A DNA stretch of 44,990 nt from positions 1 through 44,990 of the forward strand of contig CAJXUN010000035.1 of assembly GCA_913061475.1 (NCBI GenBank). Direction: 5' to 3'. The notes below the pieces were generated by a model. That model was not told the DNA's origin. It ran no database searches and saw only the letters and a program-made list of their open reading frames with translations. The position numbers and the translations under genes were made by a program. Below, in pieces: positions 5,129-30,521 of this stretch; the first letter of the stretch is position 1, and the number at the start of each line of letters is the position of its first letter. The stretch is from an uncultured Colwellia sp. (GTDB lineage: Bacteria > Pseudomonadota > Gammaproteobacteria > Enterobacterales > Alteromonadaceae).

Positions 5129-7312
5129 GTGAAAAATTTAAAACTCATAGGCTTAAGCTTAGTCAGCTTGTTATTTTTACAAGCGTGTAACGATGATGAT
5201 AAAAAAGAGGTCGTTGTTACGACACCACCGCCAGTAGTAAACACGATAGTTGATGTCGCGGTAGCTGATGGTAATTTCACGACACTTGTTGCTGCGCTTC
5301 AAGCGACAGGGCTAGATCAAACGCTAGCCGATACTAATGCTAGTTTTACGGTATTTGCTCCAACAGACGATGCCTTCGCGATGCTTGGGCAAGACACTAT
5401 TGATGCCTTGTTAGCCGACACTGATACTTTGTCTAATATTTTAACTTACCATGTTATTAGCAGCGAAGTTAATGCCGCAGCAGCAGTCGCCAGTGCAGGA
5501 ACCACGGTTGAAGTGGTTAACGGTGATAGTATTGCTCTATCACTTGACGGTGATAATTTATTGATTAATACAGCCACAGTTATCATGACTGATATCCAAA
5601 CGGATAACGGTATAATTCATGTTATTGATGCGGTGTTAATGCCACCTAAAGCTAAAGGCGAGCCAACAATGAATATTGTTGAAACAGCTGTTGCTGCAGG
5701 TAACTTCACTACTTTGGTGGCGGCATTACAAGCCGCAGACTTGGACGGTGCACTTGCTGATGAAACAAAAACCTATACCGTGTTTGCTCCAACCGATGCG
5801 GCTTTTTCTACCATAGGTTCACAGACAATTAACGCGTTGCTAGCTGATACACAAGCGCTGAGCAATTTGCTATTACAACATGTTGTTGCTGGTGAAGTAC
5901 CCGCTGTTGCAGCTTATACGCTAAATGGTCAGTCGGCTGAGACTTTATCGGGCGCAGAAATAGCAATTAGCATCAACAGCACTAACGATAGCCTGCACTT
6001 CGGCGGTGCCAATGTTGTTGTTAAAGATTTATATACAACTAATGGCATCATTCATGTTATTGATATGGTGATTGTTGGCGATGCAACGCTACCAACACCA
6101 GCAGAAAATATAGTTGATATCGCTGTTGCTAGTGACAGTTTCACCACTTTGGTTGCAGCATTACAAGCAACAGGTTTAGACACGGTATTAGCCAATGCTG
6201 ATAATGACTTTACTGTTTTTGCACCAACAGATGCTGCCTTTTCCTTATTAGGTCAAGACACGATTAATGCACTACTAGCTGATACGGATACTTTACGTAA
6301 TATCTTGTTATATCATGTGGTTTCAGGTGCAACTGTGCTACAAGATGCTGCTGCTGTGATTGCCCAGTCTGATAATAGCATGGTCACTATGGCCAATGAG
6401 CAGATGGCAAGCTTATCACGAGCTGATGCGGATTTGTTAATCAATAAGTCTTCGATATCAACGACTAATATTATGGCCAGTAATGGTGTTATTCATGTTG
6501 TTGACCAAGTGATTCTTCCCCCTACCGTTAAAGTTGACTCTAACCTGACAATTGTTGATGTTGCCGTTGCAGATGATAATTTCTCTACTTTAGTTGCCGC
6601 ACTTACTGCTGCTGACTTAGTTGAAACTTTAGCAAATGAAGACGCCACATTTACTGTTTTTGCACCGACAAATAATGCCTTCGCAAAAATTGAATCGTCA
6701 GCATTGCAAGCTTTGTTGGCAGATACTGCAGCCTTGAGTAATGTACTGTTAAAACATGTTATTAGTGATGTAGAAGTTAATGCGTTATCGAGCTACGCGG
6801 CCAATGGCACTAATGTTGAGGCTGCGAATGGCGACGAGCTTAATATCGCTTTAGTTAATTTTACTCATACCACCAATGCCAGTAATGATGAAGTTGCCTA
6901 TGATAGTGCTGCCCAATTACTGGTTGGCGGGATGAACTCTGCTAGTAATGGTCATACCTTGTATGTTTTTGATAATGACTTAGGTACGGCTGGTAGTATG
7001 TGTAATGATGCGTGTGCCAATACTTGGCCTCCAGTACTTGTTACCGACAGCGAAGTTAGCAATATTAAAGGTTTAGGTATGGTGATGCGTGACGATGAGA
7101 CTATGCAAGTGACTTACCTTGGCCGCCCACTTTACTTCTATAGCGGTGATGCTCAGCCTGGTGATATGAACGGACAAGGTGTTGGCAACTTATGGTGGAA
7201 AGTAGACCAAGAACAAGTTGCGCTGCAAGTTCAAGGCTCAAACGTAATCATGACTGATATTTACACTAAAAATGGTGTGATTCATGTTATTGATACGGTT
7301 ATTACTGACTAA
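5129..7312 (+). CDS. Four-domain fasciclin (FAS1) lipoprotein with inserted COG4315-like module
   Basis: A 727-residue lipoprotein: lipobox LQAC, Cys 20, followed by an Asp/Lys-rich and Pro linker. Four FAS1 domains follow, each starting with a copy of IVDVAVADGNFTTLVAALQ and carrying TVFAPTDDAF and the closing NGIIHVIDxV box (domains near residues 38-172, 180-315, 327-460 and 476-727). The fourth is split: after about residue 585 an insert resembling the COG4315 lipoprotein repeat (HTLYVFDNDLG, CNDACANTWPP, RPLYFYSGDAQPGD, LWWKV) intervenes, then FAS1 resumes with VIMTDIYTKNGVIHVIDTVI. FAS1 domains mediate cell adhesion or matrix binding. GTG start, ribosome binding site GAGAGG 8 nt upstream. 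The upstream promoter places it under RpoE-ChrR. Confidence 0.88.
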   Translation: MKNLKLIGLSLVSLLFLQACNDDDKKEVVVTTPPPVVNTIVDVAVADGNFTTLVAALQATGLDQTLADTNASFTVFAPTDDAFAMLGQDTIDALLADTDTLSNILTYHVISSEVNAAAAVASAGTTVEVVNGDSIALSLDGDNLLINTATVIMTDIQTDNGIIHVIDAVLMPPKAKGEPTMNIVETAVAAGNFTTLVAALQAADLDGALADETKTYTVFAPTDAAFSTIGSQTINALLADTQALSNLLLQHVVAGEVPAVAAYTLNGQSAETLSGAEIAISINSTNDSLHFGGANVVVKDLYTTNGIIHVIDMVIVGDATLPTPAENIVDIAVASDSFTTLVAALQATGLDTVLANADNDFTVFAPTDAAFSLLGQDTINALLADTDTLRNILLYHVVSGATVLQDAAAVIAQSDNSMVTMANEQMASLSRADADLLINKSSISTTNIMASNGVIHVVDQVILPPTVKVDSNLTIVDVAVADDNFSTLVAALTAADLVETLANEDATFTVFAPTNNAFAKIESSALQALLADTAALSNVLLKHVISDVEVNALSSYAANGTNVEAANGDELNIALVNFTHTTNASNDEVAYDSAAQLLVGGMNSASNGHTLYVFDNDLGTAGSMCNDACANTWPPVLVTDSEVSNIKGLGMVMRDDETMQVTYLGRPLYFYSGDAQPGDMNGQGVGNLWWKVDQEQVALQVQGSNVIMTDIYTKNGVIHVIDTVITD

Positions 7313-16677: not shown

Positions 16678-18828
16678 TTAGTTTATGTTTTTTTGCTCGT
16701 TAAGCAACTTGATGAAATAAGCCAATTGAACGGGTCGACTAAACATATAGCCTTGTACTGAGTTACATGAGTTATCGACGAGAAAACTTAATTGCTCGGG
16801 TGTTTCCACACCCTCTGCAATAACACATAAATTTAAGTTATGTGCCATGGCAATAACGGCGCGTACGATTGCTTTGTCGTTATCATCAGTGACAATTTCA
16901 TTAATAAAGGAACGATCAATTTTTAAGTAATCTAAAGGCAGTTTTTTTAAATAAGACAATGAACTGTAGCCAGTGCCAAAGTCATCGACAGAAACACTCA
17001 TGCCAATCATTCTAGCTTTACTTAATAGTTTTTCTGCGACGGAGTAGTCATCCACTAATACGTCTTCTGTTACTTCCAATTCCAATAAACTAGGATTTAT
17101 CTGGCTATCATGAATACAGGTGCGTAGGTAAGAGAATAAGTTGGCATCTGCGACTTGCGACGGAGAAAGGTTGATTGATATTTTAATATCAAAGCCTTTT
17201 AAATCGAGTTCTCTAGCAATTTGGCAAGCCCGGTTAATAACCCACTCACCAATGCTAATAATTAAACCACTTTTTTCAGCGATGGCAATAAAGCCATCGG
17301 GTGAAACGATACCTCGATCAGGATGATTCCAGCGGATCAATGCTTCAGCTTTATTAATGCTGTTGTCTTTTATATCAATAATAGGTTGTAGATATAACTC
17401 AAACTCGTTATTTTTTATTGCTTGTCGCAATTCTTGCTCTATTTTAAGCAAATCGTGCGAGGCATCTTTCATCGATTTTGAGTAGAATAACACGGAATTT
17501 TTTTTCGTGGCTTTGCCGTTATAAGCACTCAAATCAACAAACTTCATTAATTCTTCAGCACTTTCTGCGTCATTCGGGAAATTGGCTGCACCAATACTGA
17601 CACTGACATGAAAGTGCTCTGCTTTGTTGGTATAAAACGGCTTGCTTATATTATTTACCATACCTTGAATCGCCGATGAACAGGCTGCTTTGTTATCAAC
17701 ATTACTAAGAATTATGGCAAACTCATCGCCGCCTACTCTAGCGATAAAGTCAGATGTTTTAACCACATGTTTGATACGTTGAGCAAACTCGATTAACAGT
17801 TTATCGCCTTCATCATGCCCGTAAAATTCGTTGTGCTGCCTAAAGTCATTGATGTCAACGTACAGTAAATAAAACGGCTGGTTCGACGCTACATGCTTTT
17901 CTAGCACTTGTAAAAAAGAAAAACGATTAGGCAGCTCAGTGAGCATATCTTGCAGTGCAAGTTGTTCGTTGCGCTGTGTTAAGTGCTTTATAGTACTGAT
18001 ATCGTTAGCAAATACAATCCAATTCTCTACATCGTTAAATTTATTTTTAACTGGATATAAACCAATTTTCAACCACTTAAGTGTGGATGGAGGTAAAATC
18101 CAGCACAATTCACCATCCCAACTTGAGTTGGTTGTTAATATGCGCTCGTATTCGGGCAATTGGTTCTTCATCAATTTAATGATGATATCAATAGCTCTAG
18201 GCGTTGATGTATTCTTCAATGTACCTTGTTCAAAGAGGGTGAGCGCTGCTGAATTTTCAATACAGGTGCTAAAGTCATTACTCGCCACTAAAACGGCAAA
18301 TTCTGCATTTTCAATAACTTTTGCGAGCGTTGCTAATATATTACTTTGTTCAACCGGCTGCTTTAAGATGGACAGTAAGCGGGTGTGCAAGTATTCATTT
18401 TTTAGAAAAAGTCGATCGTAAGATAATAAAACTTCACGGGCTAATTGTTTAGTATTTTGCTGATGGGTAAAATTTTCTAATTGATTGGAAATCACCAGTA
18501 GATTGCGTTGCTCTTGTTTGATGGCGATAGCTTCTAAGTGCAACTCTTTATTGTTTTGAGTTATTTCGGTCCATAAGCCTGAACGTAATTTACAATTTTC
18601 AGATTTATCCCATATCTGCCTTGCATCAATAAGAAAGTCCAGTAAGAACGGACTTTCTTGGTTAATCACAAATGTTTTTTGGCTATCTAATTTCGGAAAC
18701 AAGTTGTTTGTCCATTCACTGTCACCTTCAAGCCATTTTACTGTGCCAGTATCAGTATCTGTGACTTCTAGAACAATTTGCTCTAACGCGCTTAAAACGG
18801 TATTAAGTAGTGATGTCATTTTTTTCAC
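16678..18828 (-). CDS. GGDEF-EAL protein with PAS-like region
   Basis: A 716-residue cytoplasmic protein without membrane helices. Residues about 1-130 are unassigned, about 165-275 look PAS-like, then GGDEF (about 285-440) with intact RVGGDEFAIIL near residue 363, and EAL (about 460-705) with AEALIRWNHPDRG near residue 493 and DDFGTGYSSLSYLKKLP. Both catalytic signatures are intact, so it may make and degrade c-di-GMP. Its start overlaps the GTPase gene upstream by 26 bp, so it is the last gene of a coupled four-gene operon and a candidate output of the GTPase. No regulator site is visible. Confidence 0.92.
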   Translation of the reverse strand: MKKMTSLLNTVLSALEQIVLEVTDTDTGTVKWLEGDSEWTNNLFPKLDSQKTFVINQESPFLLDFLIDARQIWDKSENCKLRSGLWTEITQNNKELHLEAIAIKQEQRNLLVISNQLENFTHQQNTKQLAREVLLSYDRLFLKNEYLHTRLLSILKQPVEQSNILATLAKVIENAEFAVLVASNDFSTCIENSAALTLFEQGTLKNTSTPRAIDIIIKLMKNQLPEYERILTTNSSWDGELCWILPPSTLKWLKIGLYPVKNKFNDVENWIVFANDISTIKHLTQRNEQLALQDMLTELPNRFSFLQVLEKHVASNQPFYLLYVDINDFRQHNEFYGHDEGDKLLIEFAQRIKHVVKTSDFIARVGGDEFAIILSNVDNKAACSSAIQGMVNNISKPFYTNKAEHFHVSVSIGAANFPNDAESAEELMKFVDLSAYNGKATKKNSVLFYSKSMKDASHDLLKIEQELRQAIKNNEFELYLQPIIDIKDNSINKAEALIRWNHPDRGIVSPDGFIAIAEKSGLIISIGEWVINRACQIARELDLKGFDIKISINLSPSQVADANLFSYLRTCIHDSQINPSLLELEVTEDVLVDDYSVAEKLLSKARMIGMSVSVDDFGTGYSSLSYLKKLPLDYLKIDRSFINEIVTDDNDKAIVRAVIAMAHNLNLCVIAEGVETPEQLSFLVDNSCNSVQGYMFSRPVQLAYFIKLLNEQKNIN

Positions 18829-19318
18829 ACTTTAATAATAGTTCAGCTAATGAAGAAAACATTTGCTCAACATTCTTACCGGTTTTAGCGCTGGTTAAAA
18901 ACTCGAGGTCAAATATGTTCTGATAGGCTTGGTGTTCACTATCATCTAAATGCCATGTGGCCAGTAAATCGCTTTTATTGATAGCGAGTATCGCTGGGCA
19001 GTTAGTGACTTGACGCGCAAGAGTATGAATGTCGATACCTTCAAGTAATGATGATGCTCGGGTTTGATCAACGACAATAATATAGCCGGCAGCTCCGCGT
19101 AAGTAACGCTCTTGAAAAACGTTATAACTATCATTACCTTCCATGTCCCATAACAGCAGGTTCATTTCTTTGTTTGCTATCGATAGCGTCTTTTTGTCAA
19201 TTTTAACACCAATGGTGGTGAGATATTTTTCACTAAAAATACCTTCGACAAAGCGTTTAACTAAGCTGGTTTTGCCAACACTAGACGCCCCTAATAGGCA
19301 GATTTTTTTTTGAATCAA
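18803..19318 (-). CDS. Ras/Rab-like small GTPase
   Basis: A 171-residue stand-alone small GTPase. G1 is GASSVGKT (residues 10-17), switch I has TTIG (34-37), G3 is DMEGN (58-62), G4 NKSD (114-117) and G5 SAK (143-145). The usual DxxGQ glutamine is Asn 62, and the Ras Gly 12/13 equivalents are Ser, which suggests slow intrinsic hydrolysis and need for a GAP. It has no lipidation motif. It belongs to the prokaryotic Ras-like GTPases; unlike MglA, no MglB gene is adjacent, but the protein encoded upstream may take that role. It is 90 bp downstream of the OmpA-like gene and overlaps the GGDEF-EAL gene. Confidence 0.9.
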   Translation of the reverse strand: MIQKKICLLGASSVGKTSLVKRFVEGIFSEKYLTTIGVKIDKKTLSIANKEMNLLLWDMEGNDSYNVFQERYLRGAAGYIIVVDQTRASSLLEGIDIHTLARQVTNCPAILAINKSDLLATWHLDDSEHQAYQNIFDLEFLTSAKTGKNVEQMFSSLAELLLKCEKNDITT

Positions 19319-19408
19319 AGCGTCAGCTCCCTTTTAGACCGCTTGTTGGTTTCTTGATACCAATTAAAATACTACGCTTATTTACAACACTGTCACCTTA
19401 TTATTTTC

Positions 19409-21169
19409 CTAATGGTGATTGGTGTAAATCACGTTGAACATAACACTTCTTGATGTACTGCTAATGTTTACAATATCTATTTGCCCTAAGCCTACAACAT
19501 ATATTTTGTCTTTAGCTATGCCTTTGCTCAGTAATATGTCCGCGGTATTATTGGCTCTGTTCATACTGAGAATATCATTAGCCGCTTTGTTACCTGTGTT
19601 GTCGCTACTGCCTATGATTAGCAAGCCAAAATCAATACCAAGGTCATCAGCTATTGGGGCTAGTTGCTTAATATATTGATAAAGTCGATTTAAGGACCTT
19701 TGCATTTTCGCCGTGATATCCCCACTCGCCACTGAAAAATTGAGTTGAATCGATGCTATTCGGCCAATGAGCTGGTTAAATAATTGCTGTTTAATTTGCT
19801 GACTTGTCGCTATGTGCTCTGTTGATGTTAATTGCAATTGTGCTGTTGTTAGGTTTTCGCCTTGGGTGAGTCCCGCAATGGCTAAGGCGTTAATGAGCTG
19901 CTCTGTTTTTATTAGATCTAATGTGCCCGCTAGTGCCAGGCTATTGTTTTGCCAAGTTGAGCTAATACTTGGATATGCCGAAATAATGCGCTGCGCTCGT
20001 TGTTGTAATATTTTTTGGTCAAGCGAATGATAGCTGCGCTCTACGATAGTGAATGTTGATGGCTGTAATTCATTACTGTTAAGCCAGTCAGTAATATTTA
20101 CCGCATCAGGGTCGCGTAAAATATCGAGTTTGATATTATCCAGCTGATTTATTTTTAGTTGCTTGATAATGACACCAGGTTGGCTATCTAAGCGCATTAT
20201 TTTTTTATGGAGTTGTGTGCTTTTTACCCAATCAAATGTTTGGTACGTGGTGTAGCACAAAGCCAATAGGACTATTGACCAAGCAAACCACGGGATTTTT
20301 TTCTTATGGCTTGGCTTTATTTTTTCTTCAGATAAAAGACAGTCTCGTAAGATGTTATCAGCGGTATCAAAATGTTGATTGTCACCATTAAAATTGTTGA
20401 GTTCATCAAAATATAAGCTATGAATGCGCTCTAGTGTCAGTTGTAATTGGTTGCTGATACTTTGCGGGGGATTGCCACTAACCGCAGCCACAACAAGCGC
20501 GCTTGGCCCTGGTTTGATCAGCAAGTTAAAATTGTCGGTACTGACGGATTGTAGTTGTTCTTTTGGACCTTCTTGAGCGGACAAAAATGAATCGCCAACA
20601 AAATCATTAATGGCGGTTAGCATCGCTGAGACAATATCAGCGTCGCTTTTGTTTTCATTGTCTAGTGCGACGGCATTGAGTAGTAGACCGGTTTCCCGAT
20701 GAATAAGAAAAACATGTTCAACACGATAAACAAAGGTTTGAGATGCGGCATATTGCGCATAGCTAACACCGCTTTGTCGAGCTTTAAAGCGCCATTTTAA
20801 TCCTTTGATGGTTAAACTATTTTCTAATAATTGGTTGGTTTTTTCCATAAAGTCACTGAGAAAAGCAGCGACAGATTTCCTTACTAAGCTACCGACAAGT
20901 GGGTATAAAGAACTCACCATTTGTTCGCTATTGTGTGCAACAGAATGTTTGACAGAGTCTTCGATAAAAGGTTGTAGTACTTTATTGACAGAGTTATCTT
21001 TTTGTTGTCTGTCGTGCAGTGCCTCAGTAATAACCTCTGCCACAATACTGCGAGCATCTTTTTGTATGCTGGCGGTTATTCTGCTGTTCTCTTTACCCAG
21101 TAGTAACTCACGTACTTTTTCTAATTGTTGCTCTGACTCAGTATGTTCTGTTGCGGCATCGGTCGGCAT
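19409..21169 (-). CDS. Membrane protein with OmpA-like C-terminal domain, GTPase operon
   Basis: A 586-residue protein. Residues about 1-105 are helical (ESEQQLEKVRELLLGKE, MVSSLYPLVGSLVRKSVAAF). About 120-270 form a globular cytoplasmic domain with YRVEHVFLIHRETGLLL and IVSAMLTAINDFVGDSF; this pattern recalls the longin/roadblock-like region of a known uncharacterised OmpA family. One membrane helix follows (IPWFAWSIVLLALCYTTYQ, about 293-311), then a BON-like stretch and a C-terminal OmpA domain with IIGSSDNTGNKAANDILSMNRA. So the N-terminus would be cytoplasmic, near the GTPase, and the OmpA end periplasmic, binding peptidoglycan. Start overlaps the coiled-coil gene by 1 nt. Confidence 0.85.
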   Translation of the reverse strand: MPTDAATEHTESEQQLEKVRELLLGKENSRITASIQKDARSIVAEVITEALHDRQQKDNSVNKVLQPFIEDSVKHSVAHNSEQMVSSLYPLVGSLVRKSVAAFLSDFMEKTNQLLENSLTIKGLKWRFKARQSGVSYAQYAASQTFVYRVEHVFLIHRETGLLLNAVALDNENKSDADIVSAMLTAINDFVGDSFLSAQEGPKEQLQSVSTDNFNLLIKPGPSALVVAAVSGNPPQSISNQLQLTLERIHSLYFDELNNFNGDNQHFDTADNILRDCLLSEEKIKPSHKKKIPWFAWSIVLLALCYTTYQTFDWVKSTQLHKKIMRLDSQPGVIIKQLKINQLDNIKLDILRDPDAVNITDWLNSNELQPSTFTIVERSYHSLDQKILQQRAQRIISAYPSISSTWQNNSLALAGTLDLIKTEQLINALAIAGLTQGENLTTAQLQLTSTEHIATSQQIKQQLFNQLIGRIASIQLNFSVASGDITAKMQRSLNRLYQYIKQLAPIADDLGIDFGLLIIGSSDNTGNKAANDILSMNRANNTADILLSKGIAKDKIYVVGLGQIDIVNISSTSRSVMFNVIYTNHH

Positions 21170-21705
21170 TATATTAGATCGTCTTCTAAATTAGTTGCCA
21201 TGGTTGCGAGTAATTTAGCCAGCGTTTTTCTATCGGTTTTCGATGAACTAAGTTCATTTGATACGGATTCTAGATGGCTTTTTAATTGCTCTAGCTGATC
21301 GTTGAAATTACGGCTAAGCGACTGACTTTCTTTATCAAGTGCTTGTTCTATATTTTTAAAGTCTTGTTGAGTGGCACTGGCAAGCATTTCATGCTCGGAT
21401 GATAAACTGGCAAGGTTTTTCTCGATTGACGCTTCGTTATCGTCATGGCTTTTATCTGCAAGTTGTAATTGTTGCTCTAAATTAGAAAATCGTTGGTTAA
21501 TACTTTCCTGCATTTGCGCTAGTTGATCGTTAAAGCTGGAATTTTGTTTGCTTAACGCGTGTTCGATATCACTGCGTGTTGAGGAAATTTGCTGTTTTAA
21601 TTGTTGTTCTGCTACGCCAAAAACAATTTGCCGGAGCTGATCAAGTTCGTTTACTTGAGCGGCTTCTTGCTGCTGCTCTTTTTTGATATCTTTATTATTT
21701 GGCAT
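21169..21705 (-). CDS. Coiled-coil protein, first gene of the GTPase operon
   Basis: A 178-residue, highly charged, almost wholly helical protein with long Gln/Ser/Glu heptad segments (LAQMQESINQRFSNLEQQL and similar). Its N-terminal NELDQLRQIVFGVAEQQL resembles the QLEKVRELLLGKENSRI of the next protein, so the two may share an interaction motif. The C-terminal DRKTLAKLLATMATNLEDD is set apart from the coils. No enzyme domain. TAATG overlap with the OmpA-like gene. Probably a scaffold or adaptor; function unknown. Confidence 0.8.
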   Translation of the reverse strand: MPNNKDIKKEQQQEAAQVNELDQLRQIVFGVAEQQLKQQISSTRSDIEHALSKQNSSFNDQLAQMQESINQRFSNLEQQLQLADKSHDDNEASIEKNLASLSSEHEMLASATQQDFKNIEQALDKESQSLSRNFNDQLEQLKSHLESVSNELSSSKTDRKTLAKLLATMATNLEDDLI

Positions 21706-22044: not shown

Positions 22045-25000
22045 TTAGCTGTTTTTAGTTAAGGTAAATAGCTGGTTTTTATTATGTTTGCTATTTCGGG
22101 TTTGCCAACCGGCACCGCAGCCAATCAACAATAATATGCCCGCCAAGCTATAGTAGATAAAGTCGTTTGGCTCTACAGTTTGGGCGTTTTGTTTATCAAG
22201 TTTTTGGCCTTCAACTTGCTGTTCTGGTTTAGTTTCTGCTGAAGAGTCATCTTTTTTCTCTACATTTTTTTCGGCAAGTTGTTGGTTGTTCTTCGCTTGC
22301 TGGGCTTTTGCGCTAGCGGCCATGGCTTCTAGGGTTTTTGCTACCAGTGGCGCTAAACCAAAACCTTCGGCTAGTTCATTGACATGCGCTTTTACCGCGT
22401 CATTTAAAATCACTAAGTCATTGTTATTAACCACGGCAACATATTGTTCAACGAGTTGTTTCAAACGTTCAGGGTCTGCTTGCCAATAGTCTTTACGCTC
22501 TGCTTCAAGCATGCGTTCCATCATACGGGCGAAGGCGGCAGGATTAATATCTTTAAACCATTCGTTGAGCTTCAGGTCGAGTTTGTCATTAACATAAATG
22601 TCTAGGTACTCATCCCATTGATCGTTTCTGATCAGGTTAGGATCAACGACTTGCCAGCCAAAAAAGTTATCTATTTTTGAGGCTAACGACACGGCACCTG
22701 AATAACCTTCTTTTTGTAGCTCTTTTATCCAGCGAGGATGAAACATGCGAGTACGTAATTCTTTGGCGAGGAATAAACCGGCATCTTCGGCTTTGGCATT
22801 TTTAGCGTCACGTAAGTTGGTTATTACCATGTCAGGACTTTTACCATCAATGTTACGTACCGCTAAACTGAGTGCGCCAAAGTATTCAAACGGGTCATCA
22901 GTACTTAGCATACCAAATAGATTTGAAGAACGAGCAAACATGGCGATGTCAGTGCCTGATAATTGTTTGGCGTAAAGTTGTATTTCTTTACCGTCAGTAT
23001 TTGCCGCTTTTTTTCCCCAGCGGCTATTGTCAGCACCGAAGAAATAGCCCATTTTTCCTAAGTAGTTATCAGAGATTTTTTTATCATCTTTCCAGGTATC
23101 GCTGGCCCAAGCAGCGTCGTCTACGCCGGTACCATAATCTCCTGATTGATTTGAAAAAATTCGAATAGTTGATAAATACTCTGCTTCTTTTTCATCAACA
23201 CCTTCGGCCAGTAAGTCTGCTTTTACTTTTTCACTATTTTGCCAAATCGAGTTGTTGTCTTCTTTTAGTGCCGCGACCTGATTGACCGCTTTTGCTAGCA
23301 TTTGCATGACATTAGGAAAAGCGTCACGGTATAAACCTGTGGCTGACACCACGACATCTATACGTGGACGCTTTAATTCGCTGTAAGGAATGATTTCTGT
23401 GCCAATAACGCGGCCGCTTGCACTCCATTTTGGCTTAACACCCATGGCATAAAGTACTTGAGATTCAAGTACGCCGTAGTGACGCATGGTTTCAATTGAC
23501 CATAATGAGAAGGCCATTTTGTCAGGGTAACGTTGATGCTTTTGATAGTAATTAGCGATCATTTGTTCTGTCAGTTCTTTGCCTTGCTCGAAAGCTGCTT
23601 GGGTTGGAACGCGACCAGGATTAAAACCAAATAAGTTATAGCCAGTAGCTAAAGATTCGGGGTGGCGTATTGGATCGCCACCTGATTTTACTGGAATATA
23701 CTTAGCACTCAAGAAGTCGACCATGGCATCGAGTTCGTGGATACTTGCCATGCTTTTATATAGTGCTTTACCACGTTCGATATCTGCTTGTAGCTCTCTT
23801 GTTAGCTCGGGAATTGGCACCGGGCGTTCGACTGATTGATCGACAGCATCAATGATATAATTTTTAACGGTTAAGTAACCTGATAAACGGCTGACATCAT
23901 TTTCTTCAACTGTTTCAGTACGGGTGATATTATCTTTTTCATGCCTTTTTTCATGCCTTTTTTCATGGTAAGTATGGCTATGAGCAACACTTTCGTCACT
24001 TTCGTTAGTGCCGCCGCCGTGATGCTCACCAATTAAGCTTTCACCGTAGTTATCATGTTCAAACTCACTAGCCCTTGCAGTAAAGTCGTTGCCCAGCATT
24101 TGTACTAAGGTTGATATCGTTAAGGCTTGTTCTGGAATATAACCAAAAGTATGTAAACCTAGTGGCTGATTAGCGGTTGCTAACGCTTCTAAGTGAATAT
24201 GTAAGGCGTCGATAAACTCATCAAACGCTTGGTCAATTTGTGCTTGTTCCCACGCTAAGTCTTTACAGATATTGGTATCAAAACATAACTGAGTTAATTG
24301 CACGGCCGTTTTTTGTTTTACGCCACCTTGATCGAGTTGTTTATATTGATGCATCAATTCATGCAAATTTCGAATCTCGCCTTCTAACCCGGCAGCAGCA
24401 AATGGTGGTGTCATGTGTGAGATAACAGTAGCGCGGCCACGGCGTTTGGTTTGCATCGCTTCACCAACATCATCGACAATAAATGGGTATACCACGGGCG
24501 TATCCCAAACCGCTAAATTACCTTGGTCATAAATAGATAAACCCCGTTCTTTGCCGCCTAAATACTCTTGTGAGCCATGGGTACCTAAATGAACAATAGC
24601 GTCGGATTGCCAATACTCGCGGGCATAATAATAAGCGGCAAGGTAGAAATGATTGATAGGCACTAAACCTTGGTGATAAATCATGTTTTCGTCATTTTTA
24701 TCATCAGAGCGCGGTGGTTGGCGCATGATCAGCATATTGCCGTTGCGAATACGTGGCAGGATAAAAAAGTGCTTACCGTTTTTTTCTACCGCCATAAAGT
24801 TGTCTTGCGGCTTGCCCCAATGATCCGTTATTTTTTGCGTTAGTTCAGTCGGCAGGGCATTAAACCAGCTTAAATAGTCATCAATCGGCATTAACTCGGC
24901 TAAGTCATGATCTAACAATTCGGTTAATTGATAATTACGATAGAAAGGGTCGAGAATTTTCTTGGCGTTGGCAACAAAATATTCTGCATCACGTTCTGCG

Positions 25001-26337
25001 GTGTTGTAGCCTTCATTAGCTAAGCGCTGACTAATGGCTTCAATACTTTTAGGGATATTCATAAATGAAGCACCAACATCTTTGTCGCCCCAAACAAATA
25101 GGGTGAGCTTTTTATCTTTATTGGCTTTGTATTTTAAATTAACCACATTAATGGCTTTGTTCACTAGGTGCTCTAGTTGGTAGTCGATAACTTCAACTTT
25201 TTGATCTGTCATGTTCATTGCTGCCACGATCATCGGATCAATTACGCCGGCGTTTTCTGGTAACACTAAAGTGAATGACATCATATTGGCGCTGACGCCT
25301 TGCATATCAGCTTCCCATGTTTCTTTATCACCAGAATAATAAGTCATTGCTTGCATGACAGGCACATTGAATTTTTCAAACTCGACTTTACGTTGATTAG
25401 CCCAATGAATGTTACGAAAGTTGATGATCAAGTCAACATCGGTTTCTTGACCAACAACCTGGCCATCTTTAGTGATTGGCAGTTGTAGCAAATGGCTATA
25501 GTCGCTGGTAACAGGACTTAGTTTAAAAAAGAAGGGTACAACGTAAGCACCTTTGGCTTCTAGCTGGGCTATGGTGGCATCAATTAATTGCGTTTGCTCA
25601 GACTCTATTAATGCGCGTTGTAGCAATATCGCTATTTTAGGTTGTTGAGGTTTTACCGGACGGCGTTTTTTATATTCGGCTAAATCTTTGATAATCAAGT
25701 CTGGCAATGCCGGGTGATAAATGCCCTGTTGCGGAAAAATAATTGGAGCAGGTACTTTGCTAACCGTAGGAGTTGCTGACATTGCTAGCGTTGAGCTTGC
25801 TTGCTTAGCGTTGCTAACATTTTCTGCAATATAGGACAGCATATTATCGAGATTGCGACGGCCAGCGTTCATCCAATAATCTTCTAAAGTACTGGCATTA
25901 TCAGCGCTTAACGCTTTATTGAGTTTAGCGTTTTGTAAATATTTAAAAGCAACGACGGCAGAATTTACTTGGCTGATTGCCTCGGCGTAATTATCGAAAG
26001 CGGCACTGGCTTCTCGTACTGACACCGCGTCGAGAATGACTAAATCATATTGATTAAACAAGGTGACTAGTGTGCTTGTTTGGTTAGCTGCGTCGAGTAA
26101 TGACTTCGCCGACTTTTGTTGGATATGCCAAGTCGAAGCCACTCTTTCTTCCGCGACTTCTTTTAATAAGGCTATTTTTGCAGTATTGGCATGAGCGGTA
26201 CTAATAAATAATACGCTATGCGCTTTACCTGTCGGTGCTTGCTCTTGTTTGACACTCGGTGCTTGGGCAAAAACATTACTGATAACTGTAATGCAGGAAA
26301 ATAATAAGATGGAAATTTTAATTAAAGGATTTTTCAT
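22045..26337 (-). CDS. Periplasmic CobN-like chelatase (HmuS type)
   Basis: A 1430-residue CobN/magnesium-chelatase large-subunit homologue. Unlike cytoplasmic CobN it has a signal peptide (cleavage after about residue 24, SNVFA) and a C-terminal membrane helix (YYSLAGILLLIGCGAGW) after a Lys/Glu/Gln-rich linker, so it is a membrane-tethered periplasmic protein. Conserved chelatase text includes IVHLGTHGSQEYLGGKERGLS, PFIVDDVGEAMQTKRRGRA and NLFGFNPGRVPT. A His-rich insert (GEHHGGG, HSHTYHEKRHEKRHEKD) lies near residues 772-804. Context with HmuY-like, TonB receptor, ExbB-like and DUF2149 genes matches hmuS of Bacteroidetes hmu operons, linked to removing iron from heme. No CobS/CobT partners or cobalamin genes are nearby. 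Confidence 0.88.
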   Translation of the reverse strand: MKNPLIKISILLFSCITVISNVFAQAPSVKQEQAPTGKAHSVLFISTAHANTAKIALLKEVAEERVASTWHIQQKSAKSLLDAANQTSTLVTLFNQYDLVILDAVSVREASAAFDNYAEAISQVNSAVVAFKYLQNAKLNKALSADNASTLEDYWMNAGRRNLDNMLSYIAENVSNAKQASSTLAMSATPTVSKVPAPIIFPQQGIYHPALPDLIIKDLAEYKKRRPVKPQQPKIAILLQRALIESEQTQLIDATIAQLEAKGAYVVPFFFKLSPVTSDYSHLLQLPITKDGQVVGQETDVDLIINFRNIHWANQRKVEFEKFNVPVMQAMTYYSGDKETWEADMQGVSANMMSFTLVLPENAGVIDPMIVAAMNMTDQKVEVIDYQLEHLVNKAINVVNLKYKANKDKKLTLFVWGDKDVGASFMNIPKSIEAISQRLANEGYNTAERDAEYFVANAKKILDPFYRNYQLTELLDHDLAELMPIDDYLSWFNALPTELTQKITDHWGKPQDNFMAVEKNGKHFFILPRIRNGNMLIMRQPPRSDDKNDENMIYHQGLVPINHFYLAAYYYAREYWQSDAIVHLGTHGSQEYLGGKERGLSIYDQGNLAVWDTPVVYPFIVDDVGEAMQTKRRGRATVISHMTPPFAAAGLEGEIRNLHELMHQYKQLDQGGVKQKTAVQLTQLCFDTNICKDLAWEQAQIDQAFDEFIDALHIHLEALATANQPLGLHTFGYIPEQALTISTLVQMLGNDFTARASEFEHDNYGESLIGEHHGGGTNESDESVAHSHTYHEKRHEKRHEKDNITRTETVEENDVSRLSGYLTVKNYIIDAVDQSVERPVPIPELTRELQADIERGKALYKSMASIHELDAMVDFLSAKYIPVKSGGDPIRHPESLATGYNLFGFNPGRVPTQAAFEQGKELTEQMIANYYQKHQRYPDKMAFSLWSIETMRHYGVLESQVLYAMGVKPKWSASGRVIGTEIIPYSELKRPRIDVVVSATGLYRDAFPNVMQMLAKAVNQVAALKEDNNSIWQNSEKVKADLLAEGVDEKEAEYLSTIRIFSNQSGDYGTGVDDAAWASDTWKDDKKISDNYLGKMGYFFGADNSRWGKKAANTDGKEIQLYAKQLSGTDIAMFARSSNLFGMLSTDDPFEYFGALSLAVRNIDGKSPDMVITNLRDAKNAKAEDAGLFLAKELRTRMFHPRWIKELQKEGYSGAVSLASKIDNFFGWQVVDPNLIRNDQWDEYLDIYVNDKLDLKLNEWFKDINPAAFARMMERMLEAERKDYWQADPERLKQLVEQYVAVVNNNDLVILNDAVKAHVNELAEGFGLAPLVAKTLEAMAASAKAQQAKNNQQLAEKNVEKKDDSSAETKPEQQVEGQKLDKQNAQTVEPNDFIYYSLAGILLLIGCGAGWQTRNSKHNKNQLFTLTKNS

Positions 26338-26350
26338 GTGATAAATATCG

Positions 26351-26656
26351 CTACTCTTTTACGTAAATCATGCTGCCATCGGCCATTTCATAAGCAGTAC
26401 CTGCTTTCTTACCTGTGCCTGCGCCCGTTTTGCCATCACTTTTAAAACTCTCGATGGTATTACCTTTTTTAACGATAATTTCCATATTATCTTTACCGGC
26501 ATTTTTAATAACGGTGACATCTTCGGCTAAAAAGGGATTCAATGGGTTTTGTGCAATAGCAATCAATAATGCGGCCACTAACACTAAAAATACATCGACT
26601 AAGTTGACGACTGATAATGCAGGGTTAATGCCTTCATCTTCATCAAGCAACCTCAT
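26351..26656 (-). CDS. DUF2149 protein (ExbD-like, HmuU type)
   Basis: A 101-residue protein with one N-terminal membrane helix (VDVFLVLVAALLIAIAQ) preceded by the acidic LLDEDEGINPALSVVNL motif characteristic of DUF2149, and a small periplasmic domain. It resembles ExbD/TolR in layout and would pair with the MotA/TolQ/ExbB-like protein whose gene overlaps it by 14 bp. In hmu operons the same pair precedes the CobN-like gene; together they may form a proton-driven motor energising the chelatase or the receptor. Confidence 0.85.
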   Translation of the reverse strand: MRLLDEDEGINPALSVVNLVDVFLVLVAALLIAIAQNPLNPFLAEDVTVIKNAGKDNMEIIVKKGNTIESFKSDGKTGAGTGKKAGTAYEMADGSMIYVKE

Positions 26657-27251
26657 AGTCTTGCTCCACAGCTTTTACAGGTAAGGTAAGTGTTTGCTGA
26701 TTAATTACCGGCGCTTTGTTGTTGATCAGCGGCATTAGGGCTACGAGTTCTTCGACCATCCAACGCTTTTTAACTGAGGCGATCCAAAAGGTAATTGAGG
26801 CGATTATCAAACCAAAAATAACCGCGGAAAATGCAACAATTAAGTTTTCACTAATGCCTTGTATATTGCCATCGGCTAAGCTTTTTAAAGCAGGTCCCAT
26901 TGGGATCATCGTGGCGATTAAACCTAACATAGGGGCTAAACGGCTGACATTACGCACGCCTTCCAGCTCTTTTAGTGCCGCGACATCAAGTTGGTCTTGA
27001 CTGATGTTGGGAATTTCATTTGCCAAAGATGCCATTGGGTAGCCGTTCAGCATTAAGTCAGGCTTATTGCCTAATCTGCTGTTAAGTAATTGTATGAAAG
27101 ACTTATAATGACGACGACGTTGCAGGGTTTGACTAAAAAATTGTCCGCTAGCAAATAAAGAGTAAATAAACAGTAATGCAATAAGACAAAGCACAGGAGC
27201 CATAAAGAAATCAGACAGCTGGTACATGGTTTGTTCGATCAGGGCGATCAT
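26643..27251 (-). CDS. MotA/TolQ/ExbB-family proton channel protein (HmuT type)
   Basis: A 202-residue protein with three membrane helices: FFMAPVLCLIALLFIYSLFA near residues 15-35, a second beginning around APMLGLIATMIPMGPALKSL and a third around IVAFSAVIFGLIIASITFWI. The second segment is the conserved MotA/TolQ/ExbB signature. With the DUF2149 protein it would form an inner-membrane ion-channel complex. It lies 105 bp after the HmuY-like gene, with a hairpin in the gap. Confidence 0.87.
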   Translation of the reverse strand: MIALIEQTMYQLSDFFMAPVLCLIALLFIYSLFASGQFFSQTLQRRRHYKSFIQLLNSRLGNKPDLMLNGYPMASLANEIPNISQDQLDVAALKELEGVRNVSRLAPMLGLIATMIPMGPALKSLADGNIQGISENLIVAFSAVIFGLIIASITFWIASVKKRWMVEELVALMPLINNKAPVINQQTLTLPVKAVEQDYEVA

Positions 27252-27306
27252 AATATTTCCTAACAGGTAGTTAATTTAAGTGATAAACAATGAAGATGAG
27301 TCAGGG

Positions 27307-27339
27307 ACTCAAGGCGCAGGAGAGGTTTACGCCTTGAGT
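27307..27339. terminator. Intercistronic hairpin in the hmu-type operon
   Basis: ACTCAAGGCG (27307-27316) and CGCCTTGAGT (27330-27339), perfect 10-bp arms with a 13-nt loop, between the HmuY-like and ExbB-like genes. No T-tract on the minus strand; probably an mRNA processing or stabilising element that lets receptor and HmuY mRNA outnumber the downstream part. Confidence 0.55.
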
Positions 27340-27356
27340 ATGAGGTTTACTCGGGT

Positions 27357-28544
27357 TTACTCATTAGCGGCTTCGCCAACAAGTTCGGTTACTTCGTCAG
27401 CTCTGAAGCTATAGTTACCAGAGGTAACGCTTTCATCGTAGTAGCTGGTTATTTGTAGTTTATGAGTGGCTGTCGGTGTTTTAATTAAATAAATGTCGAA
27501 TTGCGACCATAATAAATGGCCACCATTAAGTGCGTATTGGTACCAATTATGGGTAAACGATTTGAAAGCGTTTTCCGAATAACTACTGCTTTTAAAAGCT
27601 AAAAACTCGGCTGAAGCAGGATCAATAGCGTTATAGCTGTTTTCGAAATCTTGTAATGCTGTGGCATCATCAGCAAGCTTAATTTCGAAACTTGCGCCAG
27701 TCTTATCTTCAGCACAAGGTAGGCTAATATCCCAAGCATCAGCTTCGGTTACTTCTTGATTGCTATCAAAATCAACATACACTGCGGTTACGTCGCCAGA
27801 ACAAGTTAATGCGGCGTCTATAACAAGCGCTTGCTCAGTGGTAAAGGCAACGTCACTGCTACCTTGATAAGCGGTCTGTAAAGTTATTTGGCCTATGCCT
27901 CGACCTGCAGTGGTAATGCTTGTTGCTCTAAATTTAGTAAAGGCACCGTCTGAATCAGTAATGAAGTATTTGGTATCAGCGGCACTAACCACATGTGTTG
28001 TCGAATTGTAGTCGTAGAACCCTGCAATAATATTTGCGGTAACATCAGCGATGAATAAGGTTTCATCGGTTGGTATATCGCTAGTTTTTACCGCTAAATA
28101 ATCATCTAACTCAGTGTCAGCATTGGCGGCAATGAAACTTGCAGCGATAGGGTCGCCATTGGCATCAAAAAAGTCACTATTATTGCCCATGGCATAGGCC
28201 GTAATGGCATTATCGCTGTTTTGATTAAGATAAATATTGGTACGTTTAAAGGCAATATCCCAAACGGTGTTCGCTGCGGCTTCTTCTTCTGTCGCTAATT
28301 CAACAACGGCTTTAGCGTCTAAATCGTAATATACAAATACCGACTCGCTAGTACTGCCAGTGCTATGTGGCCCAATAATATCACCTTGCGTTGGTGCTGT
28401 TGGAGTCGTCGGTGTTGTTGGTGTCGTTGGTTCAGGTGTGATTTCCTTACTTGAACTACCGCCACCACCACAAGCTGTTAGTAAAACGCACAGTGCTAAG
28501 CTGGTTAATTTGAATGTTGGGTTTAAATTTTTGTTAAGTCTCAT
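27357..28544 (-). CDS. HmuY-family heme-binding lipoprotein
   Basis: A 395-residue lipoprotein: lipobox LTAC with Cys 25, then a Gly/Ser and Thr-Pro repeat linker. The folded part has HmuY hallmarks: ESVFVYYDLDAKAVVELA, NTVWDIAFKRTNIYLN, a second similar WDISLPCAED strand region, and the C-terminal HKLQITSYYDESVTSGNYSFR. HmuY proteins capture heme from host or environmental proteins and pass it to the TonB receptor. The protein is longer than Porphyromonas HmuY (about 216 residues) owing to the linker and a central insertion. It lies 18 bp after the receptor gene, in one operon. Heme ligands cannot be assigned by eye. Confidence 0.82.
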   Translation of the reverse strand: MRLNKNLNPTFKLTSLALCVLLTACGGGGSSSKEITPEPTTPTTPTTPTAPTQGDIIGPHSTGSTSESVFVYYDLDAKAVVELATEEEAAANTVWDIAFKRTNIYLNQNSDNAITAYAMGNNSDFFDANGDPIAASFIAANADTELDDYLAVKTSDIPTDETLFIADVTANIIAGFYDYNSTTHVVSAADTKYFITDSDGAFTKFRATSITTAGRGIGQITLQTAYQGSSDVAFTTEQALVIDAALTCSGDVTAVYVDFDSNQEVTEADAWDISLPCAEDKTGASFEIKLADDATALQDFENSYNAIDPASAEFLAFKSSSYSENAFKSFTHNWYQYALNGGHLLWSQFDIYLIKTPTATHKLQITSYYDESVTSGNYSFRADEVTELVGEAANE

Positions 28545-28562
28545 GTTGTTTTCCTATATTCC

Positions 28563-30521
28563 CTAAAATTTATAGCTAATGCCAGCACTTATGGTGCGGC
28601 TACTAACAGGTCTTGCATCAAATAAATTTTGACTGTTTGCAGTCGGTTTTTTGTGTTTATCAAAGATATTGTCAACACTTATTCGCCACGACAGTTTGTC
28701 TGTTATGGCTTGATTAAATACCGTGTTAAAGGTGGTATATTCGTTATTTTCGACGCCTTGGTAGCTATCAGGCACAGCTTCTCCTGCTTGATAAACGGCG
28801 TAGGCGATAATTTCGATATCATAAGCGTCGATATCATAATTAATGTTGAATTTTATTTGATGACGCGGACGGGAAAGTAGGCGTTGGTTATTTTCATCTT
28901 CGCTGGTTAAGTAGCTGTAATTTAATTGTGTTTTCCATTGGCTAAAGGTCAGTTGCGTACTGATATCAAAACCATGAATTTTCGCTTCACTAATATTTTG
29001 ATACTGATAAATAGATAAGCCTGTTTCTTGTGATTGTTCAACATCAATGATCGAGTCAATTAGGTTGTCAGTTTTTGAGTAATGCACACTAATATCACTA
29101 CGTAAGTCGACTTTGTTATCCGCCAAAGTGGTGTTAAAAGTTAAACTTGAGTTAAATGAATCTGCTGTTTCTGGTTCAAGGTCTTTGTTGCCTAATACCA
29201 TGTAGCCTAAAGCGCTATGATCGAAAACATAGAAACGCTCTTTTAAGTTTGGCACGCGATAGCTTTGACCTATGCCTGCGCGCCATTGCAATTTACCTTC
29301 AGCTAAAGCAAAGTTTTTCATTGTGCTAAGACGTAAGGCGTTATGCCAACCAAAATCTGAGTCGTATTGGCTACGCATACCGGCAAGGATTTGATAGTCT
29401 GATTTTACCCAGTTGCCTTGTACAAATACTTCAACGCTTTCACGGCTTTCATCATCAACTTCAATAACGTTTTCAGCGGGCTTATCTTGTGTCAGTTTGT
29501 CAGCATGAACAACCGCACCGGTAACTAACTCAATATTGTTGAATTGAAAAACTTTTTGACCATTAATTTCGGACAGAATAATATGGGTGTCACGTAAGCT
29601 ATTTGATTGGCCACTGGTTTCTTGGTGATTAATGTAGCGAGCGTTAAGTTGCCAAGGTGATTTTGGATGTTTAGCACTTTTTAAGCCCAGATCTATTTGC
29701 TGTTGATCTACATCTGTTCTATAGAAAATTACTTCGCTTTGTCCAGGGATTATCGAACTATCACGAAGCTTTTCATCACTTAACCATTGGTACTTAATGC
29801 TTGTGGCGAGATCTTCAAAGGCTTTATTCGTGCTTAAGGTAATAAATTTTTTATCAACACTCGCCGCATCTTGGCTGACGGTATTGCTGTCGTAATCATA
29901 ACCTTGGTCATCAATGATGAGCGCGTTAAGCTGAGTACGCCAGCCGGAGAAATTTTCCACCGCGTTTATTTTTAGCGTGTGGTTTAAGTCGCCATCTTCA
30001 AAGGTATTACCTTGATATTGACTGACATCATAATCAAGCTTGAGTGCCGGTTCGTCAGATTTATGAGTGATAATATTAATCACGCCACCCATGGCTGAAC
30101 TGCCATACATAACCGAAGCCGCACCGCGAATAATTTCAATTTGGGCAATATTACTGGCGGGAACTTGGTCTAGATCCGCGGATGAGCCAGTAGGACTTAT
30201 AATGGGTTGACCGTCAATCAAGACTAAAACATGGTCACCATCAAAGCCTTGCATTTGAATGTTATAGCCGTCTTTTACGCTACGTTTCACGACGACACCC
30301 GGAATATAATTCAGTGCTTGCGCTAACGTGCCATGACTAATTTTGGCAATAGTTTCACCATTAATAACATCGACTAATACTGGAGAGTCACTTAAAAGCT
30401 TTGCGGTACGGGTACCAGTGACAACAATGCGCTCAGTTTGGCTTTTGTCTGCAGTTGTTTGCGCTATAGCACCTATAGGCAAGGCCAAAATCAGAGCCGA
30501 TAGGCTAGCTTTAATATACAT
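28563..30521 (-). CDS. TonB-dependent receptor, heme type (HmuR-like)
   Basis: A 652-residue outer-membrane receptor. Signal peptide to about residue 20 (IGAIAQ), TonB box near TERIVVTGTR, plug domain (about 35-145) with PGVVVKRSVKDGYNIQMQGFDGDHVLVLIDGQP and IEIIRGAASVMYGSSAMGGVINIIT, then a 22-strand barrel ending SRTISAGISYKF with a terminal Phe. Substrate is inferred from the neighbouring HmuY and CobN-like genes; the plug style also fits cobalamin or catecholate receptors. First gene of the operon, behind a Fur-like site. Confidence 0.9.
   Translation of the reverse strand: MYIKASLSALILALPIGAIAQTTADKSQTERIVVTGTRTAKLLSDSPVLVDVINGETIAKISHGTLAQALNYIPGVVVKRSVKDGYNIQMQGFDGDHVLVLIDGQPIISPTGSSADLDQVPASNIAQIEIIRGAASVMYGSSAMGGVINIITHKSDEPALKLDYDVSQYQGNTFEDGDLNHTLKINAVENFSGWRTQLNALIIDDQGYDYDSNTVSQDAASVDKKFITLSTNKAFEDLATSIKYQWLSDEKLRDSSIIPGQSEVIFYRTDVDQQQIDLGLKSAKHPKSPWQLNARYINHQETSGQSNSLRDTHIILSEINGQKVFQFNNIELVTGAVVHADKLTQDKPAENVIEVDDESRESVEVFVQGNWVKSDYQILAGMRSQYDSDFGWHNALRLSTMKNFALAEGKLQWRAGIGQSYRVPNLKERFYVFDHSALGYMVLGNKDLEPETADSFNSSLTFNTTLADNKVDLRSDISVHYSKTDNLIDSIIDVEQSQETGLSIYQYQNISEAKIHGFDISTQLTFSQWKTQLNYSYLTSEDENNQRLLSRPRHQIKFNINYDIDAYDIEIIAYAVYQAGEAVPDSYQGVENNEYTTFNTVFNQAITDKLSWRISVDNIFDKHKKPTANSQNLFDARPVSSRTISAGISYKF

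Follow-up and report, generated by a model that had tools for sequence, protein, structure and literature searches.

A Group 1 Rup locus of an uncultured Colwellia: a Rab-like GTPase linked to an OmpA-domain membrane protein with a putative roadblock-like domain and to a c-di-GMP enzyme

How could a small Ras-type GTPase be tied to the cell wall and to the turnover of a second messenger? The question is raised by four linked open reading frames (ORFs) in a stretch of DNA from a marine bacterium, an uncultured Colwellia sp. (assembly GCA_913061475.1, contig CAJXUN010000035.1, positions 1 to 44,990), the whole 44,990 nucleotides of which are called the window below. The four ORFs are confirmed on the minus strand, at the positions claimed by a first-pass annotation of the window, and encode in this order a coiled-coil protein, an OmpA-domain membrane protein, a Rab-like GTPase and a GGDEF-EAL protein (Table 1). 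We lean towards the view that they form a Group 1 Rup system, in which an envelope-anchored small-G-protein switch would set the activity of a second-messenger enzyme.

It was a survey of prokaryotic Ras-family GTPases, published by Wuichet and Sogaard-Andersen in 2014 (PMC4316618), that defined the Rup family and, within it, Group 1. In the portions of this survey dealing with Rup, the partners of a Group 1 GTPase are a cytoplasmic coiled-coil protein, a protein made of a domain of unknown function, a membrane helix and an OmpA domain, and an output module. The latter is typically a diguanylate cyclase/phosphodiesterase fusion or a histidine kinase, and harbors an invariant glutamine in its N-terminal region (PMC4316618). 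Group 1 GTPases lack the glutamine of the G3 motif, which the authors speculated to be supplied in trans, and the Rup G motifs are otherwise like those of eukaryotic switches (PMC4316618). According to the same source, no Rup member had been experimentally characterized as of 2014, and a literature search with little coverage of subscription journals found no later characterization. Each of the four parts of the window set fits this description, down to the absent G3 glutamine and the output glutamine, and the set exhibits no architectural difference from it; Gln128 of the window output protein is assumed to be the glutamine of the logo in PMC4316618. As every Group 1 feature given in those portions is present, the window set belongs to a kind already described, and the novelty that the first-pass annotation implied for the four-gene architecture gives way to the 2014 publication. 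What is added here is the roadblock-like reading of the cytoplasmic domain, the HD-GYP and cyclase outputs, an LxxLRxLLxG segment shared by two of the proteins, and further phyla. A word search of the main text of PMC4316618 returns no HD-GYP and no nucleotide cyclase except diguanylate cyclase, none of its six passages mentioning “roadblock” concerns Rup, and its sections on Rup do not mention the LxxLRxLLxG segment.

The linkage of the four genes is conserved well beyond the genus. When one genome per species was scanned, the cytoplasmic region of the OmpA-like protein had at least 513 encoded relatives. The 80 that scored best were retained, and the loci ranking first among them are from Colwellia and Cognaticolwellia. 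The complete set of four is found at 69 of the 80 loci (the coiled-coil gene being scored in this count by position and length), three of the genes at eight loci, two at two and one at a single locus, a neighborhood survey that bears out the conserved linkage anticipated by the first-pass annotation. The GTPase is present in 77 loci and lies directly downstream of the OmpA-like gene in 75, while a suitably sized ORF ends beside the OmpA-like gene in 78, and phmmer recovers the coiled-coil gene in 72. Going by the titles of their records, the 80 loci span nine phylum-level groups. Pseudomonadota contribute 57 loci from Gammaproteobacteria and 8 from Mariprofundia, followed by Acidobacteriota, Gemmatimonadota, Myxococcota, Cyanobacteriota, Thermodesulfobacteriota, Latescibacterota, Coatesbacteria and CSSED10-310 with one to three loci each; among these loci the full four-gene set is not seen in every group.

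At the level of genomes, 30 of 369 gammaproteobacteria encode the cytoplasmic region, as do 25 of 194 members of the phylum of the genome behind the cyanobacterial locus, 12 of 247 genomes of the acidobacterial set, 13 of 200 of the gemmatimonadal set and 31 of 78 of the set for the class of Ghiorsea, two of these last being weak. In the 369 gammaproteobacteria, with the GTPase counted at an E-value of at most 1e-25, GTPase and region occur together in 29 genomes, the region only in 1, the GTPase only in 4 (three of them close to the threshold) and neither in 335, a co-occurrence with a Fisher value of 1.2e-37, uncorrected for kinship. Taking together surveys whose loci overlap, the GTPase adjoins 152 of the 164 OmpA-protein ORFs that have at least 600 nucleotides downstream, and a Rup-type GTPase is found in 12 of 12 chosen genomes with an OmpA protein, non-adjacent cases included. 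Two loci, L122 and L128, possess the coiled-coil, OmpA-like and GGDEF-EAL genes with no adjoining GTPase, a Rup-type GTPase being encoded elsewhere in both genomes; by eye, their glutamine segment appears shifted (KQSRE/KQARE). A second, longer subfamily of OmpA-like proteins (~720-1040 amino acids) is found in the cyanobacterial set (L190-L213), with an adjoining GTPase in 21 of 24 loci.

The GTPase exhibits the motifs G1 (GASSVGKT), G3 (WDMEGND), G4 (NKSD) and G5 (SAK). Across 37 diverse GTPase rows its G1, G4 and G5 residues show little or no variation, and the G3 Asp58 that it possesses is invariant in the same rows. The best 60 of 725 matches to solved structures are Rab proteins or close to them, with a top E-value of 6.2e-23. 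At the position of Ras Gln61 the window GTPase has an Asn. Gln is never found there in the 75 readable motifs of 77 GTPases, which display Glu (24), Ile (23), Val (8), Asn (5), Thr (5) or other residues (10). Lacking its own catalytic glutamine, the GTPase would require help in trans for hydrolysis.

The output proteins belong to more than one class: among the 75 of 80 loci for which a complete output ORF was obtained (five loci are without one), 47 encode a GGDEF-EAL protein, 12 an HD-GYP protein, 10 a class III cyclase and 3 a kinase, and 3 are unassigned. Locus L119, a cyclase with an adjoining GGDEF-EAL protein, was scored as cyclase; one of the unassigned outputs, that of L127, is a PP2C-type protein in which the N-terminal domain is missing by eye. 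Mapped on the tree of 70 GTPase rows, the output classes cluster strongly, with 6 parsimony changes as compared to a mean of 23.3 in shuffled data and a floor of 3 for four classes. Outputs were thus swapped three times or more, and in other respects have passed down together with the GTPase. Repeated swapping is nevertheless unproven, as the well-supported branches of the tree require at most one origin per output class.

All five EAL signatures are complete in 42 of the 47 GGDEF-EAL relatives, and 21 of the 47 have neither GG[DE]EF nor GADEF. As the EAL signatures are mostly complete and the GGDEF motif is often missing, these motifs suggest that the module is mainly a phosphodiesterase of cyclic dimeric guanosine monophosphate (c-di-GMP). 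In the window protein both the GGDEF and the EAL motifs are intact, and its EAL half looks active. Upstream of these domains, Gln128, Ala130 and Arg131 are invariant in all 41 aligned output rows, and conservation of the Gln reaches 90% or more across 36 diverse outputs; a PAS domain match follows at residues ~150-290. The outputs of L107, L133, L134 and L140 appear, by eye, to have two tandem N-terminal sensor-like domains, the first of the type of cyclase outputs and the second of the type of GGDEF/HD-GYP outputs.

What, then, is the cytoplasmic part of the OmpA-like protein, for which Pfam returns no family over residues 1-290 of the window protein? An AlphaFold2 model of the full protein was computed from 64 rows, the window protein and 63 of 70 eligible proteins, 10 of the 80 OmpA-type proteins having been excluded from the pool for length or incompleteness. 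The mean predicted local distance difference test (pLDDT) value is 79.7 and the predicted template modelling score (pTM) is 0.43, the latter making the arrangement of the domains unreliable. Residues 137-252 are modelled as a helix (137-145), two strands (146-157, 163-168), a helix (171-195), three strands (208-210, 215-220, 224-232) and a final helix (236-252). This order, alpha-beta-beta-alpha-beta-beta-beta-alpha, is that of the roadblock fold. The ten-residue-block pLDDT over the strands is 76-90, except for the short strand 208-210 (64). The stretches VFLIHRETGLLL and IVSAMLTAINDFV, in which the first-pass annotation had seen a roadblock/longin-like motif, coincide with strands 146-157 and 163-168 and helix 171-195. 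The model upholds the roadblock-like order at this place with moderate confidence. The longin half of the claim has lost ground with more rows: a Fuz/MON1 match in 2 of 16 rows (best E-value 0.015) fell to 1 of 30 more diverse rows (E-value 0.075).

Profile comparisons give weak signals in the same direction. The domain aligns in register with 17 Robl_LC7 domains over 74 columns (P 0.015). Cropped from the A3 alignment, it scores 19.8 against the roadblock profile, above the top of 300 column shuffles (17.6), and from the A5 alignment 18.3 versus 17.9 for the top of 300 shuffles, while the reversed domain scores 12.5 and five other regions 8.9 to 14.9. No roadblock match was obtained for the output N-terminal region or the PAS region (scores of 9.3 and 14.9; probability 0.5%). 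The best PDB match of the A3 profile is a roadblock protein, 9jue_D, again in register. Several results weigh against a roadblock-like fold. Helix 171-195 has a block pLDDT of 49-57, the hhalign probability versus roadblock is 2.9%, and a GTPase control profile reaches 17.3 over 22 columns, a small margin below the 19.8 of the domain. The 9jue_D match is non-significant (E-value 0.21). The largest profile, A10, with 92 rows (91 of 110 listed stretches and the window), returns no roadblock match at E-values up to 10 and scores 17.9, so that added rows did not strengthen the match. Robl_LC7 is absent from the Pfam families listed for 16 members, and from those listed for 30 members (25 of 44 families). 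Finally, the best 50 of 947 Foldseek matches to the whole model hold only its OmpA end and appear by title to be OmpA-family domains; because the matches listed cover that end, Foldseek neither supports nor denies the roadblock reading. Taken together, we consider a roadblock-like fold of this domain likely.

The hydropathy maximum of the entire OmpA-like protein falls within residues 280-330 in 61 of 64 aligned rows. The window copy is only weakly hydrophobic in this segment, being among the weaker of the 64 rows, and its hydrophobic stretch starts at ~292, just after a KKK. The model displays a confident alpha/beta region at residues 333-447, which we suspect to be BON-like because Rv0899, with two separated domains, is among the Foldseek matches. 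The large cytoplasmic region, membrane helix and periplasmic OmpA domain proposed at first pass are supported.

The coiled-coil protein has no Pfam family over the cut-off, its coiled coil being assigned by eye and from low-complexity helical Pfam matches below the cut-off. It has in common with the OmpA-like protein an N-terminal LxxLRxLLxG segment, found as a strict pattern in 75 of 78 coiled-coil proteins and 51 of 78 OmpA-like proteins, and at most once in 200 shuffles of each protein set. The shared segment rests on these pattern counts; hhalign of the coiled-coil protein versus the N-terminus of the OmpA-like protein found no homology beyond it (probability 5.4%). Both segments may bind a common partner, or else one another.

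How might these parts work together? In the scheme that we favor, the OmpA-like protein would cross the inner membrane with its OmpA domain towards the peptidoglycan, and its cytoplasmic roadblock-like domain, probably dimeric, would hold and regulate the Rab-like GTPase. The coiled-coil protein, with its N-terminal LxxLRxLLxG, would be a co-scaffold. The GTP-bound GTPase would contact the N-terminal domain of the output protein, and in the window system this contact would switch the EAL domain on or off, changing c-di-GMP near the envelope. As candidate for the help in trans, the 2014 survey put forward the invariant glutamine in the N-terminal region of the output protein (PMC4316618); that the roadblock-like domain would orient the GTPase switch is an addition of the present analysis. 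We infer the binding and catalytic steps, the direction of control and the sensed signal. A more specific proposal, and a tentative one, is a relay that combines a wall-anchored roadblock regulator (with membrane helix and OmpA domain) with a glutamine supplied by the enzyme in the fourth slot, be it a c-di-GMP phosphodiesterase, an HD-GYP protein, a class III cyclase or a kinase. The effector would then be the GTPase-activating protein (GAP), making each signalling act self-terminating. Other observations speak against such schemes. The Gln128 segment follows the N-terminal domain, a location not proven to suit a GAP residue, and, by eye, the cyclase outputs keep the Gln and lack the Arg. Moreover, covariation between the GTPase and the OmpA-like protein (149 unique pairs of 180; effective number of sequences 119) gave no usable interface. 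Its bulk scores exceed those of permuted pairings, but the positions are scattered and often buried-looking, as expected from shared descent, and covariation was therefore set aside as evidence.

The lack of a covarying interface would suit a roadblock-like domain that is a membrane scaffold only, locating the GTPase and the output while an unlinked guanine-nucleotide exchange factor or GAP runs the nucleotide cycle. Roadblock proteins are able to act as platforms, and L122 and L128 keep the OmpA protein and the output adjoining with the GTPase elsewhere in the genome. The adjacency of GTPase and OmpA protein in 152 of 164 cases and their near one-to-one co-occurrence suggest instead a dedicated pair, and we judge the scaffold-only role rather unlikely. 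Another reading is that residues 137-252 adopt a different alpha/beta fold (longin, PAS- or profilin-like) with a likeness to roadblock in element order alone. Neither the Pfam nor the PDB profile matches are significant, and the weak Fuz/MON1 match would fit a longin; the helix ahead of the first strand, the modelled order of elements and the in-register, albeit non-significant, roadblock protein at the top of the A3 profile matches make this an improbable solution.

The GTPase could also be a slow or dead switch serving as a structural subunit, with an output enzyme that answers to its own PAS domain. The Gln61 equivalent is indeed missing in all 75 readable GTPases, and the output family does have a PAS match. 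Still, G1, G4 and G5 are conserved to near invariance, as nucleotide binding would require, and the Rup G motifs otherwise resemble eukaryotic switches in the survey's account (PMC4316618), so that a slow or dead switch appears quite improbable.

If the roadblock-like reading is true, the envelope-anchored switch would provide a testable, envelope-tethered GTPase regulator of second messengers in several phyla, and a point of comparison for the first partnerships between a Rab-type switch and a roadblock/longin protein. If the relay is true, bacteria would possess, in the Rab-like GTPase and its roadblock partner, an equivalent of the GTPase-roadblock pairs of eukaryotes.

Parallels exist among known systems. 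YfiBNR also couples an OmpA-domain protein to a c-di-GMP enzyme, and YfiB structures are among the Foldseek matches listed for the OmpA end; to our knowledge it has no GTPase, and YfiN is a cyclase controlled via YfiR. The MglA-MglB system of Myxococcus likewise associates a Ras-family GTPase with a roadblock-type protein. In contrast to it, the roadblock-like domain of the window shares its polypeptide with the membrane helix and the OmpA domain, and the window GTPase retains the G3 Asp, which the survey describes as conserved in all but MglA (PMC4316618). The MglB-type Robl_LC7 family (PF03259) has no match in the window genome. With the G3 Asp kept and PF03259 without a match, the statement made at first pass that the parts differ from MglA-MglB stands. 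The analogy with the conservons of Actinomycetota (CvnA-D) was drawn by the 2014 authors (PMC4316618): these, too, are conserved operons of four genes that combine a GTPase with a signalling enzyme. They differ, in that survey's terms, by an MglA-family GTPase, a separate roadblock gene and a histidine kinase, their four genes being without an OmpA protein.

Table 1. Features of the four-gene locus, in window coordinates
Feature	Coordinates	Strand	Basis
Coiled-coil protein, first gene, 178 amino acids	21169..21705	-	ORF list; N-terminal LDQLRQIVFG, conserved C-terminal SSSKTDRKTLAKLLATMATNLE
OmpA-like membrane protein, 586 amino acids	19409..21169	-	ORF, Pfam, AlphaFold2 model
Predicted layout of OmpA-like protein: LEKVRELLLG segment, long low-confidence helices, roadblock-like domain, membrane helix, periplasmic region, OmpA domain			
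Putative roadblock-like domain, residues 137-252 of OmpA-like protein	20414..20761	-	AlphaFold2 secondary structure and weak sequence signals
Membrane helix, residues 294-329 of OmpA-like model	20183..20290	-	AlphaFold2 model, hydropathy
OmpA domain, residues 478-573	19451..19738	-	Pfam, E-value 1.9e-9
Rab-like small GTPase (Rup), 171 amino acids, TTG start	18803..19318	-	Pfam Ras, E-value 6.7e-30; G motifs
GTPase G3 motif DMEGN, without catalytic glutamine	19133..19147	-	Sequence
Output protein, 716 amino acids from GTG: N-terminal domain, PAS, GGDEF, EAL	16678..18828	-	
Output N-terminal region, residues 1-140, KQLAREV at its end	18409..18828	-	Alignment, 41 rows
GGDEF domain, motif RVGGDEF intact	17497..17958	-	Pfam, E-value 2.8e-38
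EAL domain: EALIRW, DDFGTGYSSL, LKID, AEGVET, QGY	16732..17436	-	Pfam, E-value 3.7e-77

The first-pass annotation had taken the four genes for one transcription unit on account of their overlaps. These are real: the coiled-coil and OmpA-like genes have one base in common (TAATG at 21169), and the output gene begins within the GTPase gene, the shared stretch being 26 bp with the GTG at 18828 as start, or 17 bp with an in-frame ATG at 18819, near the position of which several output homologues start. A 90-bp gap (19319-19408) between the OmpA-like gene and the GTPase had gone unmentioned. Promoter-like sites number 11, versus a mean of 16.3 in shuffled sequence. We infer a single transcript.

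Elsewhere in the window, positions 22045-30521 of the minus strand cover what appears to be a cluster for metal or haem uptake that includes a chelatase-like protein. This protein, of the CobN/magnesium-chelatase family (1430 amino acids, Pfam E-value 3.7e-286), seems by eye to have a C-terminal membrane helix and a signal peptide, and upstream of its gene are encoded a TonB-dependent receptor, an HmuY-like protein and a protein of the MotA/TolQ/ExbB type. On the plus strand, the product of positions 5129-7312 has four Fasciclin stretches as well as Lipoprotein_15 repeats.

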